Of a stretch of 64,000 nt of DNA, positions 1-17,821 are shown in pieces. Numbering within the stretch: position 1 is the first letter of the stretch; every line of letters begins with the position of its first letter. A model generated the notes under the pieces. It was not told the origin of the DNA, searched no databases, and was given only the letters and a program-made list of their open reading frames with translations. The stretch comes from a virus: positions 1 to 64,000 of the IMG/VR virus record IMGVR_UViG_3300021963_000002. One strand, 5' to 3'. The position numbers were made by a program, and so were the translations under genes.

Positions 1-442
1 TGTGACCTGCAGCGAACTTGTTAAAGCCACGCACAACTTGCTCGTCAAGAATGCTGGGGTCGCCATACGCACCCCAGCGAATCTTGCGACCATTGAGCAG
101 CATGCCGTAGTTAATATCTGCGGCAACGGCAGGATCTGTCAGGTCGACATAGCCGCCGGCTTTGTAGGTTCGCCACACTGACAGCGGTGCTTGGCCGACA
201 TTGACATAGCAAGACCGCTTGCCGTTAGCTTGCTTGCGGTGGATGCAGTTACCGCAGATCGAATAGTCTGCGCCGATAGCTAAAGCTTCGGCGGGGTTAA
301 TATCCTCGCGGAGAATCCAGACCTGGCACATGTTGCCGGTCTTGCGATTGCCTGATTCGAGAGTCATAACGGCAACAAAAGGCTTGCCGTCGATAGGGGA
401 ATTGCCACGTTGAATGACAAAACCGAGAGGCTTTTTGGCCAT
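1..442 (-). CDS. Partial phage protein with a GNCIHR cysteine motif, unknown function
   Basis: An open frame reads leftward from ATG at 442 and runs off the left edge, leaving about 147 residues without a stop. It begins MAKKPLGFVIQRGNSPIDGK and later shows CGNCIHR, RSCYVNVG and PLSVWRTYKAGGY, a pattern I associate with a conserved small phage protein of unknown role. The paired cysteines and histidine could bind a metal, but that is inference. It is the last visible gene of the leftward early direction and is separated from the HNH gene by more than 900 non-coding bases, so it probably has its own promoter. The real C-terminus lies outside the window. Confidence 0.8.
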   Translation of the reverse strand, partial: MAKKPLGFVIQRGNSPIDGKPFVAVMTLESGNRKTGNMCQVWILREDINPAEALAIGADYSICGNCIHRKQANGKRSCYVNVGQAPLSVWRTYKAGGYVDLTDPAVAADINYGMLLNGRKIRWGAYGDPSILDEQVVRGFNKFAAGH

Positions 443-6197: not shown

Positions 6198-8846
6198 GTG
6201 GATACAGGTCTTATGTTCGGTCCGAATCTGGCGGCCATTGAGCAGCTTCGGCGGGAGATGCTCCCTGCCGACTGGAAGTGGGTTCTCGTCAGAGGAAAGG
6301 CGGCGTTTGGCGCCGGCACCTCCAAGGATCCGCTGACGCCGGAGGAGGCGTTGAGCAAGTGGGATGCCCTGTCGCACCGTACTGGGATCGGTGTTGTGAC
6401 AGGTGATGCAAGCAACGGCTTGGTCGCAGTGGATATTGACGGCCCCTTGGCTGAGGAAGCGTTTAAGGAGCTGCTCGGTCAGCACTGGCCTGAAGTCGAA
6501 ACCCCAGGGACCATGTCCTGGCGAGGGCGGCCTGGGCGACGGCAACTGGTTTACAAGGTCCCAGACAGCCTGCGGCCACTGCTTTCAGCCTTCACCAAGG
6601 CCCAGATGGTGGAGGAGTTAAAGGGCACGGATGAGGAGGTGTGCATTCGATACAACGGCTGCTACTCCGTGATTCCCGGCTCCGAGCACCCGGATACCAA
6701 GCAGCCCTACGAATGGATTTCATACAACGACGGGAAGGTGGCACCGGCTCCTGGGTGGCTGGTCAACTTCCTGATGAAGGAGGCCAAGCCCAAGGAGGTT
6801 CACAGCTTCCTTCCCGCGTCATACCTGGAGAAGAGTGACGCCTCGACCGAGTTCACCAACCGGCAGATGCGCCGCCACTTCTTTATGGAAGGCGGTCTGC
6901 TGGAGAAGCTGATCGCACATGAGAGCGCCTTCGAAGCTCTCTATTACTCAGAGGTGTGGGAGGAAGGCTTCCAGCCGCTGAAGCCTGAGGGCGGAAATAG
7001 CGACGTGCTGGTGGGTGGCTGCCCTTTTCACGACAGCAACAGCGGCACCAGCTTTGCGCTCTGGCCGAACCTCAACTGGTACTGCCATAAGGAAGAGACG
7101 GGTGGTGATGCGCTGCAGTTGCTGCACTGCCTGAGGACTCGCGACATTCACGCCGGTGATCCGGCTGGCGCGACCTTGGAGAGCTATCTGGTCGAGATCG
7201 CTGAGGCTGTTGGGGTCAAGTACCCCGAAGACTTCCGGGAGGTGCAGAAGGTCCAGGAGGTCAAGAAGTACGACCCCATCGGTGGACCGTCGTTCTTGGT
7301 GGCGGCGAACAACATCATCGATCTGTTCCGCAACCCGGCGGAGCAGCGGCTGGAGCTGATGCAGCTCGCCCATGACTACGGCGTGCGGATGAGCCCGGAC
7401 GAGATCCTGCTGGCCCTGCAGGAGGACGTCGACTTCAAGACCAGTGGAACGCCCGTTGGACCTGACGATCGGCGGAAGCTGATCAAAGGGTCGGACTATT
7501 TGATCCCTGACCTGCTGAAGCGGCCCAACACGGTGCTGTTCCACGGCGACGGTGGATGCGGCAAGTCGTTGGCCTGCCAGGTGATCGCCAAACATGTGGG
7601 CCGGGGGCTGCCCTTCAAGATCCGGGGCGAGATGGTCCCGGTTTCAGCGGGAACGGTGCTCTGGTGCAACGCCGATCAGAGCCCAGAGATCCTGGAGGAG
7701 CAGTTCGAGGACCAGGGCATCCACAAGGACTCCTGGCTTCGGGTGTGGAACGGATTCCGCCTCAGCTACCGGAAGCGGTTGGTTGATGAGCTGAACCGCT
7801 ACCAACCCTCGCTGGTGGTGATCGACTCCCTCAGTGCGAGTCAGCCGACCATCGATGGCAACAAGCAGATCTCATCGGCAGGGCTGTACTGGCTGGAGAA
7901 CAACAACGGGCTGCTCTGGCCGGCGACCTGCTTCCTGATCATTCACCACAACAACAAGCAGGGTGGGTTCCGGGGGCATAGCTCCATCCGTGACGCCGTT
8001 TCGGAGACGTGGTCGATCCGCAAGCTCGACGACAGCGAGGTCCAGAGCGAGGAGTACGGCTCAGAGTCCTTCCGCAAGCGGGTGATCACCATCGGCAAGA
8101 GCCGGAACGGGCGCGAGGGGGACAAGCTCGTGACCTCCCTGAACGAGGACTTCACGATGGACCTGGAGGACTACACCCCGGTCCGCAGGGTCCGCCAGGG
8201 CGGCTCTGTGCCGGTGATCGACAAGGTGCTCGATCAGCTCCGGGAAGACACCGCTCAGGGTGTGCTGAGGACCCGCAAGGAGCTGGAGGCGCTGCTGATG
8301 CGGGGAACTGGTGACCGCGCTGTTGCCAAGAGCCTGGAGAGGCTCCGGAAGCGTGGGCTCATCCAGTCCTTTGATGCCGAGCACCAGCACCGCAGCGATG
8401 GGAAGCCTGAGAAGGTCTACGCGGCAATCACAGCGCTGAATACGGGATTAACGGGGGCCTCGCGGGGAGATATCAATGAAAGTGTGTCGCATTCGACAGA
8501 TCCCGCTTCAGCACTGGCTTCTGCGAATGCGACAACCAATGCGACAACCTCACCTGTCGCATTCGAAAGTGTTCATCCCGCTACCGAGTCTCATCTTTCT
8601 ACGGATGAGGTTGAAGAGGTGCACCCATCACCAATGCGACACCCTGATGCTGTCGCATTCGAAGAACCCAGTCAGGGCAATGCTTCTGCCGAATGCGACA
8701 GTTTGGTGGAGAGAGTAGGGGAGCCCACTTTTGAGGGGCACCTAGACCCCGAATCCGAGGCAGAAGGTGAACCTCCGACCTGGGAGGAGCTCATGGCCGA
8801 GTTCGATCCCACCGAAGAGCCACCGAGCTGGGAGGAGCTGATCTGA
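6198..8846 (+). CDS. Primase-helicase (prim-pol / zinc finger / RepA-type ATPase)
   Basis: The 882-residue protein appears to combine priming and unwinding. The N-terminal bifunctional primase-polymerase domain includes GIGVVTGD and VAVDIDG (D79, D81). A CHC-type zinc site is seen at C275-x2-H278 and C296-H297. A RepA/AAA-type helicase follows, with Walker A GDGGCGKS (450-457), Walker B LVVIDS (D543) and the sensor-like IIHHNNKQGGFRGHS. Beyond about residue 740 the protein becomes low-complexity, and there the DNA carries repeated GAATGCGACA elements. The start is GTG 6198; ATG 6213, preceded by AGGT, is an alternative. Confidence 0.85.
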   Translation: MDTGLMFGPNLAAIEQLRREMLPADWKWVLVRGKAAFGAGTSKDPLTPEEALSKWDALSHRTGIGVVTGDASNGLVAVDIDGPLAEEAFKELLGQHWPEVETPGTMSWRGRPGRRQLVYKVPDSLRPLLSAFTKAQMVEELKGTDEEVCIRYNGCYSVIPGSEHPDTKQPYEWISYNDGKVAPAPGWLVNFLMKEAKPKEVHSFLPASYLEKSDASTEFTNRQMRRHFFMEGGLLEKLIAHESAFEALYYSEVWEEGFQPLKPEGGNSDVLVGGCPFHDSNSGTSFALWPNLNWYCHKEETGGDALQLLHCLRTRDIHAGDPAGATLESYLVEIAEAVGVKYPEDFREVQKVQEVKKYDPIGGPSFLVAANNIIDLFRNPAEQRLELMQLAHDYGVRMSPDEILLALQEDVDFKTSGTPVGPDDRRKLIKGSDYLIPDLLKRPNTVLFHGDGGCGKSLACQVIAKHVGRGLPFKIRGEMVPVSAGTVLWCNADQSPEILEEQFEDQGIHKDSWLRVWNGFRLSYRKRLVDELNRYQPSLVVIDSLSASQPTIDGNKQISSAGLYWLENNNGLLWPATCFLIIHHNNKQGGFRGHSSIRDAVSETWSIRKLDDSEVQSEEYGSESFRKRVITIGKSRNGREGDKLVTSLNEDFTMDLEDYTPVRRVRQGGSVPVIDKVLDQLREDTAQGVLRTRKELEALLMRGTGDRAVAKSLERLRKRGLIQSFDAEHQHRSDGKPEKVYAAITALNTGLTGASRGDINESVSHSTDPASALASANATTNATTSPVAFESVHPATESHLSTDEVEEVHPSPMRHPDAVAFEEPSQGNASAECDSLVERVGEPTFEGHLDPESEAEGEPPTWEELMAEFDPTEEPPSWEELI
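8485..8700. repeat. Cluster of seven GAATGCGACA elements, possible origin iterons
   Basis: TGTCGCATTCG occurs at 8485-8495, 8555-8565 and 8651-8661. The inverse occurs at 8524-8534 and 8690-8700 (CGAATGCGACA), and with one change (AATGCGACA preceded by CC) at 8538-8546 and 8633-8641. They lie in the primase-helicase coding region but fall in all three codon phases, giving unrelated peptides (SHST, NATT, VAFE, MRHP, ECDS). The constraint is therefore on the DNA. Clustered repeats within a replication gene resemble phage origins such as lambda O. Confidence 0.8.
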
Positions 8847-9004: not shown

Positions 9005-9325
9005 ATGCCTATTACTTCAGAACCCGGGAGCTTTTTCGCTGAAACAGGCAGCGAGGGCTTGATCGTTGGCCTTTGGGGTGACGAGACCGGTGCAGTCACC
9101 TTGGCTCTGCTGGACGAGGCGCGTCCGGCGGGCGCTTTCTTCCTCATCAGCCCCTCCACCCTCCATGAGCTCGCAACCAACTTTCAAGCTTGTGACCACT
9201 GGCTCCGGGGTGAGGGCTGTGTTTCGGGAGCTGGCTGCCGCTCGTCTGTTGGCTGTGGATGTGGAGACAACCGGGCTAAATCCGATTGTCGACAAGTTGC
9301 TGCTGCTTCAGATCGGGCTGCCTGA
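9005..9325 (+). CDS. Possible small protein overlapping the polymerase start
   Basis: From ATG 9005 the frame encodes MPITSEPGSFFAETGSEGLI... and the first ~65 residues look like an ordinary globular protein (VGLWGDETGAVTLALLDEA). The last 54 codons lie inside the polymerase gene in another frame and become Cys/Arg/Ser-rich. It may be a real small gene with a long overlap or a decayed one. No family recognised. The remaining stretch 8847-9004 shows nothing else I can name. Confidence 0.35.
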   Translation: MPITSEPGSFFAETGSEGLIVGLWGDETGAVTLALLDEARPAGAFFLISPSTLHELATNFQACDHWLRGEGCVSGAGCRSSVGCGCGDNRAKSDCRQVAAASDRAA

Positions 9326-10991
9326 CATCGTCTATGTCTTTGACTGCCGGACACTGGGTGACGAGATTCGTTATCTAGCACCGGTTCTCAGCAAGAAGTC
9401 CATCTCCAAGCTTGGTCAGAACCTTGCTTTTGACTGGGGTTTCCTAGAAGCCAATGGACTTCCCTTGAGGGGACCCCTGCTCGACACGATGTTGGGCGCA
9501 AGGTTGATCAACCTCGGTTTGAGGCACAAAAATGACCTCGGCTCTCTGGTGCAGCGCTACTTGGCCCTTCGTCTGGAGGACAAGAAAGAGTTGCAAAAGA
9601 GCTTTATCGGGCATGAGGGGCCTTTCACTCAGGAACAGCTCGAATACGCAGCCCGCGATGTTGCCCTGCTGTTTCCGTTGTATGAAAAGCTCCGCTGGAA
9701 ACTGAAACAGGAGGAGCTGCACCACATCTTCAAGCTGGAGTGCCGGTGCCTTCCCGCTTTTGCGAGCATGACCTACAACGGTTTTCTGCTTGATGTTGAG
9801 CACTATGAGCAACTTTTGGTAGATAGGCGGACTGCGTGCGATGAGGTTGAGAAGGAGGTCGTGGCGCACTTCGAGGAGCTCGGCGTCCTCGACCAGTACA
9901 AAAACCCAGAAACAGGGGAGGTGATGATCCACCCCGCCTCTCACGGCAGGGGGAAGAACAAGATCAAGGGGTTCAACCTCCGATCCCCTTCCCAGCTCGC
10001 CCCAGTCCTGAAAGCGGGAGGGGTCCCAGTAACGGGAAGCCTTGATCAGAACGTCCTGGCATTCCTGGCTCCGGATTACCCGATTGTTCGCCAGTACCTC
10101 CGCTACAAGCACGCGGCGACTGAGTGCTCTCAGATCGAGAAGCTGATCGGGCATGCCATGGACTATCCCGACCACCGTATTCGTGCTTCCTACCGACAAC
10201 TGGGTACAGACACCGGGCGCGCATCGTGCTCAGGTCCCAACCTTCAGCAGGTAAACCGCAGCAAGGAGCATCGGCAGGGTTTCCGCGCCGCGCCTGGTCA
10301 CAAGCTGGTGATCGCTGACTACTCCCAACTAGAGCTGCGGATTGCTGCAGAGTGCAGCGGTGAGGAGCGCATGGCTCAGGCGTATCGCGAGGACGCCGAC
10401 CTTCACCTCCGCACGGCGTCTCTCATGCTGAACAAGCCTGAGGAAGACATTGACAAGGCTGCCAGAACCTCAGCGAAGATCATTAACTTCGGTGCCCTCT
10501 ATGGCGCGGGTGCCAAAACAATTCAGAAGCAAGCCGTCGCCCAGTACGGCGTTGATATGCCGTTGAGGGAGGCGGAGGAGAAGCTTTCACAGTGGCGGAA
10601 GGCATATCCCCAGCTCATTGGCTGGCAGAAGACTCAGGGCAACCGGGCGGAGTTGAACGTCAAAACGCTGATGGGCCGGCGCCGGTTGCTCGTTCCTGGT
10701 GAGACAGACCGCTTCACCGTCAGGCTCAACACCCAGGTGCAGGGCACCGGTGGTGATTGCATGAAGGCTGCGCTAGCCATGCTCTGGGAGACCTATTTAG
10801 AGCCCAATCCCGAGATCAAACTCGTCGCTTGTGTGCACGACGAGACGGTCCTCGAAGTACCTGATGATCGCGTTGAGGAGGCGATGGAAACCCTTAAGCA
10901 CTGCATGGAGGCAGCGGCTTATGAGGTGTGCATCACCAACGTCCCCATCGTGGCGGAGCCCGGATATGGAGACGATTGGTCGGCTAAGTAG
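9165..10991 (+). CDS. Family A DNA polymerase (PolA-like) with 3'-5' exonuclease
   Basis: The 608-residue replicative polymerase lacks the 5'-3' exonuclease of bacterial Pol I, as usual in phages. Proofreading residues are LAVDVETTG (D32, E34), LGQNLAFDW and EYAARDV. Polymerase motif A is DYSQLELR (385-392), motif B is RTSAKIINFGALYG, and motif C is VHDE (557-560). The residue equivalent to E. coli F762 is Phe (in NFG). ATG 9165 is chosen because it leaves a normal ~28-residue lead before the exonuclease core; codons further upstream would add a low-complexity Arg/Ser segment. Confidence 0.93.
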   Translation: MSSQPTFKLVTTGSGVRAVFRELAAARLLAVDVETTGLNPIVDKLLLLQIGLPDIVYVFDCRTLGDEIRYLAPVLSKKSISKLGQNLAFDWGFLEANGLPLRGPLLDTMLGARLINLGLRHKNDLGSLVQRYLALRLEDKKELQKSFIGHEGPFTQEQLEYAARDVALLFPLYEKLRWKLKQEELHHIFKLECRCLPAFASMTYNGFLLDVEHYEQLLVDRRTACDEVEKEVVAHFEELGVLDQYKNPETGEVMIHPASHGRGKNKIKGFNLRSPSQLAPVLKAGGVPVTGSLDQNVLAFLAPDYPIVRQYLRYKHAATECSQIEKLIGHAMDYPDHRIRASYRQLGTDTGRASCSGPNLQQVNRSKEHRQGFRAAPGHKLVIADYSQLELRIAAECSGEERMAQAYREDADLHLRTASLMLNKPEEDIDKAARTSAKIINFGALYGAGAKTIQKQAVAQYGVDMPLREAEEKLSQWRKAYPQLIGWQKTQGNRAELNVKTLMGRRRLLVPGETDRFTVRLNTQVQGTGGDCMKAALAMLWETYLEPNPEIKLVACVHDETVLEVPDDRVEEAMETLKHCMEAAAYEVCITNVPIVAEPGYGDDWSAK

Positions 10992-17613: not shown

Positions 17614-17747
17614 GTCAGTGCCCAAGCGGCTTTTCTGCGGCTTAGAAGGCAGAATACACTCGTTGCGCGGGAAGGGATCTCATCCAGTCTCTACTTGCGC
17701 TTTACACGGAAACGCAGATCTGGATTGGATGTGCGGGGGTGGTGAAG

Positions 17748-17821
17748 CGGGCCGTGCTGGACTCGAACCAGCGACCGAGTACTTAGAAGGTACTTGCTCT
17801 ATCCAACTGAGCTAACGGCCC
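17748..17821 (-). tRNA. tRNA-Arg (anticodon UCU)
   Basis: Read on the minus strand the acceptor stem is GGGCCGT...ACGGCCC (7 bp), the D arm GCTC-AGTTGGATA-GAGC, the anticodon arm AGTAC-CTTCTAA-GTACT with TCT at its centre, and the T arm GCTGG-TTCGAGT-CCAGC. All stems are intact; the discriminator base is G and CCA is not encoded. It decodes AGA, a rare codon in a GC-rich host. Beside the integrase it may also be the attachment site, yet phage DNA continues on both sides, so here it is a phage-borne gene. Confidence 0.95.

Follow-up and report, generated by a model that had tools for sequence, protein, structure and literature searches.

In lambdoid phages, iterons lie within the initiator gene (PMC7466680). 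P4 alpha combines primase, helicase and winged helix in one protein, of which the winged helix binds the origin repeats; ORF904 of pRN1 likewise carries prim-pol, helicase and winged helix in one protein and has its origin just downstream, and in RSF1010 the set of primase, helicase and iteron binder is split among three proteins (PMC4234260). SaPI Rep and SCCmec Cch2 are helicases that bind short iterons by a C-terminal domain, with the origin just downstream (PMC7581432). Moreover, binding domain and iterons covary in the RepA/origin pairs of PLE, for which an origin-directed nuclease is the proposed driver (PMC8263062), and geminivirus Rep and its iterons change together between relatives (PMC12548392).

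The DNA analyzed here (the window) comprises 64,000 nt, positions 1 to 64,000, of the IMG/VR virus record IMGVR_UViG_3300021963_000002 (L141). Both ends of the record carry an exact direct repeat of 127 nt (window 1-127 and record 70559-70685), so that it represents a circularly closed assembly of 70,558 bp. In G001, another circularly closed genome (74 kb), the terminal repeat is likewise 127 nt long, and the two are collinear circular permutations of one genome plan. Much of the genome is taken up by siphovirus-type structural genes and by genes for an exonuclease, thymidylate synthase, ribonucleotide reductase, dCTP deaminase and a family A DNA polymerase; a tRNA-Arg (TCT) gene was noted at window 17747-17821 (- strand).

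The replicase gene (6198..8846, + strand) encodes 882 aa, arranged as Prim-Pol, AAA_25 helicase, predicted winged helix and a tail whose coding sequence holds the iteron array. In Pfam only Prim-Pol (PF09250, E=1.3e-20) and AAA_25 (PF13481, RepA/RecA-type, E=9.6e-13; a family to which RepA-type helicases belong) matched, and the PHROGs matches were primases. The segment between helicase and tail is predicted to be a winged helix (aa 664-745; 8187..8432, +): the corresponding segment of one relative weakly matched GntR (E 0.0019) and PadR (E 0.0055), and a low-confidence model (pLDDT 60) consists of three helices, the third at aa 707-719. A PDB fold search with this model found no match, PDB sequence searches yielded sub-threshold matches only (some of them to Lrp/AsnC-like regulators), NCBIfam gave no name for either protein searched, and the AlphaFold model of the whole replicase was unusable (pLDDT 31). 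The next gene downstream (9066..10991, +) encodes the family A DNA polymerase (PF00476, E=1.1e-68; PF01612, E=6e-24), which likely extends the primers.

This locus resembles each of the described systems in part. As in lambdoid phages, the iterons lie in the coding sequence of the protein that would bind them. However, lambda O lacks primase and helicase domains of its own and works by recruiting the helicase of the host, and the window replicase, with its Prim-Pol and AAA_25 domains and primase matches, showed no homology to lambda O in Pfam or PHROGs. Like P4 alpha, the replicase may unite primase, helicase and winged helix in one protein, with Prim-Pol and AAA_25 clear and the winged helix drawn from weak matches; on the other hand, the alpha primase is of the bacterial (Toprim) type with no homology detected to the window replicase, and the P4 alpha origin lies outside its own gene. 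The DUF927 and Primase_Cterm/D5 domains of the SaPI Rep and SCCmec Cch2 helicases were not found, whereas iterons placed as in SaPIs, around the 3' end of the helicase gene or shortly behind it, also occur in this phage family, here inside the gene as well. The helicase of pRN1 is of the SF3 type and its origin is a stem-loop that lacks iterons, in contrast to AAA_25 and iterons here, and the three proteins of RSF1010 face a single one in the window phage. Profile searches found no homology of the window replicase to these initiators. We conclude that the window system would be a cis-encoded origin that functions in the manner of lambda O or P4 alpha, with no evident homology to either.

Seven exact copies of AATGCGACA were found, all within 8485-8700, and the 70,685-bp record holds no copy outside this array. 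They are iteron 1 (8485..8493, -), iteron 2 (8526..8534, +), iteron 3 (8538..8546, +), iteron 4 (8555..8563, -), iteron 5 (8633..8641, +), iteron 6 (8651..8659, -) and iteron 7 (8692..8700, +), each at a position kept in relatives; the longer form is GAATGCGACA in five of the seven and CAATGCGACA in the other two. The original prediction, made from these letters alone, had described a seven-copy repeat here, three copies one way and four the other, falling in all three codon phases and encoding SHST, NATT, VAFE, MRHP and ECDS. All of this was confirmed, with its coordinates correct to within 1 nt: three copies lie on the - strand and four on the + strand, the + copies alone cover all three phases (gene-start offsets modulo 3 of 0, 0, 2 and 1), and translation gives the peptides as stated. 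Chance did not reproduce the density: in local Markov shuffles (n=60) no 9-mer exceeded three copies per 300 nt, as compared with the seven observed, and synonymous-codon shuffling of the replicase gene gave at most two copies in 3,000 trials. Furthermore, the array is built around a 69-bp centre of constant length (8564..8632, between iterons 4 and 5), inside which lies the point (8592.5) about which iterons 1 and 7, and 2 and 6, are exactly symmetric.

No AT-rich tract was found beside the iterons (the 69-bp centre is 45-57% AT), in contrast to the lambdoid origin, which has one, and the top AT-rich stretches of the window genome all lie away from the array. AT content is highest at window ~1018-1226, where it reaches 80% in 50 nt; this stretch is apparently intergenic and is a possible alternative origin or regulatory region. 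A switch of GC skew at the array, proposed earlier as a check, was inconsistent between genomes: the detrended maximum falls at 8486 in the window genome but elsewhere in G001, and because of this difference GC skew was not used as evidence.

Close relatives in IMG/VR encode replicases 86-88% identical to that of the window over the full length. In the four genomes compared, all seven sites are position-matched without an indel in 216 bp, and the AAT and GACA halves are invariant (49 of 49 bases in each genome pair), with spacers 60-81% identical. The central dinucleotide, on the other hand, changes at all seven sites together: it is GC in the window phage, GG in L008 (seven of seven sites are AATGGGACA), and CA or CC in L009 and L012 (from L009 to L012, five of seven sites are AATCAGACA and two are AATCCGACA). 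The base preceding AAT is G or C in the window as against A or T in the relatives, and in G001 the seven sites are the sole matches in the genome to AATSVGACA. The exact 10-mer of the window is missing in close relatives while the array itself is retained. Absence of the repeats in such relatives had been offered as grounds for refuting the original prediction; that test would misfire, since relatives carry a matched version in place of the exact 10-mer.

The protein changes along with the sites. Within residues 1-740, amino-acid differences are densest at 703-718 in the window-L008, window-L012 and L008-L012 comparisons (tied with residues 90-91 in window-L012), i.e., in the predicted recognition helix and its N-terminal turn (aa 703-720; 8304..8357, +). 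This peak is confined to pairs whose iterons differ: L009 and L012, with the same iterons, are identical at aa 691-720, although their gene bodies differ by 16% in DNA. In addition, a residue of the predicted wing, 733, tracks the base before AAT, with S in the window protein and V in the others. Initiator-iteron covariation as in PLE and geminiviruses also occurs in this family, with few independent events here. The manner differs: PLE swaps whole domains and origins, whereas this family alters two bases of each site and a few residues of the helix in place. The Rep of geminiviruses belongs to the rolling-circle enzymes.

The array is a property of a much wider family. A first scan of genome contigs found no relative; a second found one MAG holding phage contigs, which led to this family. 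The homologue on the MAG contig, 32% identical to the window protein, has its own CCCTGGACA cluster in and just past the 3' end of its gene, and a scan of IMG/VR with its most conserved helicase stretch matched 328 relatives. We fetched 80 IMG/VR loci out of these 328 and, with the close relatives included, obtained 80 loci with a complete gene end. An array was present at the 3' end of the replicase gene in these 80 complete gene ends, including those of marine relatives ~32% identical, and in most loci it runs from about 180 nt before the end of the gene to about 120 nt after it. Of the 80 loci, 68 hold 7 or 8 copies of a single triplet plus GACA (6-8 in most), and the lowest numbers (3-5) are found in loci that mix TGG and TAG and for that reason score low; control windows from the same loci held at most three copies (1,501 windows). 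The gene end was the strict repeat maximum of the locus in 78 of 80 loci.

Across these 80 loci, residues 710 (8325-8327, +) and 714 (8337-8339, +; in the predicted recognition helix) were compared with iteron bases 3-5. R/Q at 710/714 goes with TGG (42 loci) or TAG (6), H/Q or Q/Q with CTG (29), A/E with TGC (1) and E/T with TCA (2), so that the full site cores are TGGGACA or TAGGACA, CTGGACA, TGCGACA and TCaGACA, respectively. Save for the TGG/TAG alternation within R/Q, the agreement is 80 of 80, although loci within one clade are not independent and the independent iteron switches are few. K711 and R715 are invariant, and so is GACA. Residue 710 (column 712 in the predictor scan, where the protein copy starts two residues earlier) was the best iteron predictor among the C-terminal 330 residues once the site-encoding tail columns were left out. 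On a poorly resolved tree of 130 columns, in which L222 sits on a long branch, four pairs on supported branches differ in iteron: two agree with the residue-base match, none oppose it, and the remaining two are TGG/TAG changes without change at 710/714. R-G and E-C contacts are frequent in protein-DNA recognition, as is contact of Q with the adenine of a T:A pair. We tentatively propose a residue-base code in which residue 710 would specify base 4 and residue 714 base 5.

One further position was noted within the R/Q loci: L237, L239, L242 and L245, whose sites are mostly TAGGACA, have V at residue 709, and L232, L236 and L243, with a mix of TAGGACA and TGGGACA, have I. Perhaps these loci catch a switch midway.

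The array is very probably the iteron cluster of the phage's own origin, read by the winged helix of the replicase; the concerted change of seven sites with the predicted recognition helix, together with the arrays of the 80 loci, strongly supports the original prediction that, as with lambda O, the encoded protein itself has the domain that binds the iterons. To the prediction that a replicase domain does the binding, these comparisons add which one it is likely to be, the C-terminal winged helix after the helicase. In the model that we favour, the iteron unit is a 9-10 bp site, (S)AAT-GC-GACA in the window phage. Invariant residues of the helix, K711 and R715 among them, probably read its constant half GACA, and residues 710 and 714 would read its variable half. 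Replicase bound on the sites flanking the 69-bp centre could then place helicase rings for unwinding, loaded in both directions, after which the Prim-Pol domain would prime and hand over to the adjacent family A polymerase. The spot is thus likely a self-contained replication origin.

Binding of the winged helix to the array might instead serve mainly expression of its own or the downstream gene, or copy-number control, which we consider unlikely. Control can also be exerted through binding sites that lie within a gene or behind it, and a ribbon-helix-helix gene follows the array in one clade. But the array lies at the far 3' end of the gene, distant from its promoter, and a helicase-primase is an improbable dedicated regulator. 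Moreover, the downstream gene varies by clade (polymerase, ribbon-helix-helix protein, others) while the array stays at the replicase gene; therefore the array goes with the replicase. A ribbon-helix-helix gene, CopG-like by eye, was observed ~240-300 nt after the replicase stop in several clades (loci such as L168-L219), and other clades are without it.

It is very unlikely that a separate phage or host regulator, such as a ribbon-helix-helix protein, binds the array and that the helix covaries through linkage or recombination. Helix and array lie within 400 bp, so joint exchange is possible, and a ribbon-helix-helix gene adjoins the array in some clades (in the window genome, one lies elsewhere). 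However, the ribbon-helix-helix gene of the window phage has no intact orthologue in G001, where the array is present, and a small winged-helix-like protein (L141:2630-2860, -) is 89% identical in G001 with an identical predicted recognition helix. Neither of these two small DNA-binding candidates covaries with the sites, and both are disfavoured as readers. A genome-wide scan did find group-specific hot spots in other proteins too, mostly those of tail genes, so a hot spot alone proves nothing. Two observations nevertheless speak against this alternative: i) the 25 bp directly before iteron 1 (8460..8484) are 92-100% identical in the four genomes, across iteron types, which argues against one imported block; and ii) the pairing of helix and iteron core recurs in distant phages, L008 having R/Q and TGGGACA in common with phages ~31-32% identical to it.

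A packaging (pac) or partition site, or a by-product of selection on repetitive protein sequence, is extremely improbable: the circularly closed assemblies with their 127-nt overlap are compatible with headful packaging, but the large terminase gene is far off (60.7-62.2 kb), and protein selection is opposed by sites that fall in all codon phases and both orientations, encode residues that change with the DNA, and extend beyond the stop codon in relatives.

With an origin read by the replicase's own winged helix, origin and initiator would be predicted for a large set of phages that are uncultivated and without close named relatives (328 IMG/VR relatives in one scan). It would also be a compact natural experiment in DNA-binding specificity change, in which close relatives differ by two or three bases in each of the seven sites and at a small number of helix residues, and the proposed residue-base rules would bear on what drives phage origin diversity, be it exclusion, satellites or origin-targeting nucleases. 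Although the iteron-initiator principle is known, the version with a Prim-Pol/RepA-type helicase and re-tuning in place appears to be new; the combination of such a helicase and a winged helix, an array in the end of the own gene and in-place re-tuning was not found described in the open-licence PMC papers searched. We suggest, as a possible though doubtful extension, that these phages form an undescribed, widespread replicon group in which a Prim-Pol/RepA-type helicase/winged-helix protein has the origin inside the gene that encodes it. Origin specificity would be re-tuned in place via helix residues 710 and 714, all of the at least seven sites changing along with them, and this would keep co-infecting relatives, satellites or origin-targeting nucleases from using or attacking the origins of one another.

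Outside this family, tblastn of the whole replicase against named phages gave no match, and the loci of distant helicase matches in S-CBS4 and Pam2 hold no repeat cluster. A search by two convergent sites alone returned mostly chance matches. The MAG CAJXNF01 (L162/G006) is labelled as a proteobacterium; among its contigs are those of at least two such phages, probably as a result of binning contamination, and on contig C15 the start of the replicase contains one in-frame TGA. Finally, distant matches of the family comprise cyanobacterial plasmid replication proteins (CyRepA1 family), cyanobacterial AAA ATPases and the cyanophages S-CBS4 and S-EIV1, hinting at a cyanobacterial link.
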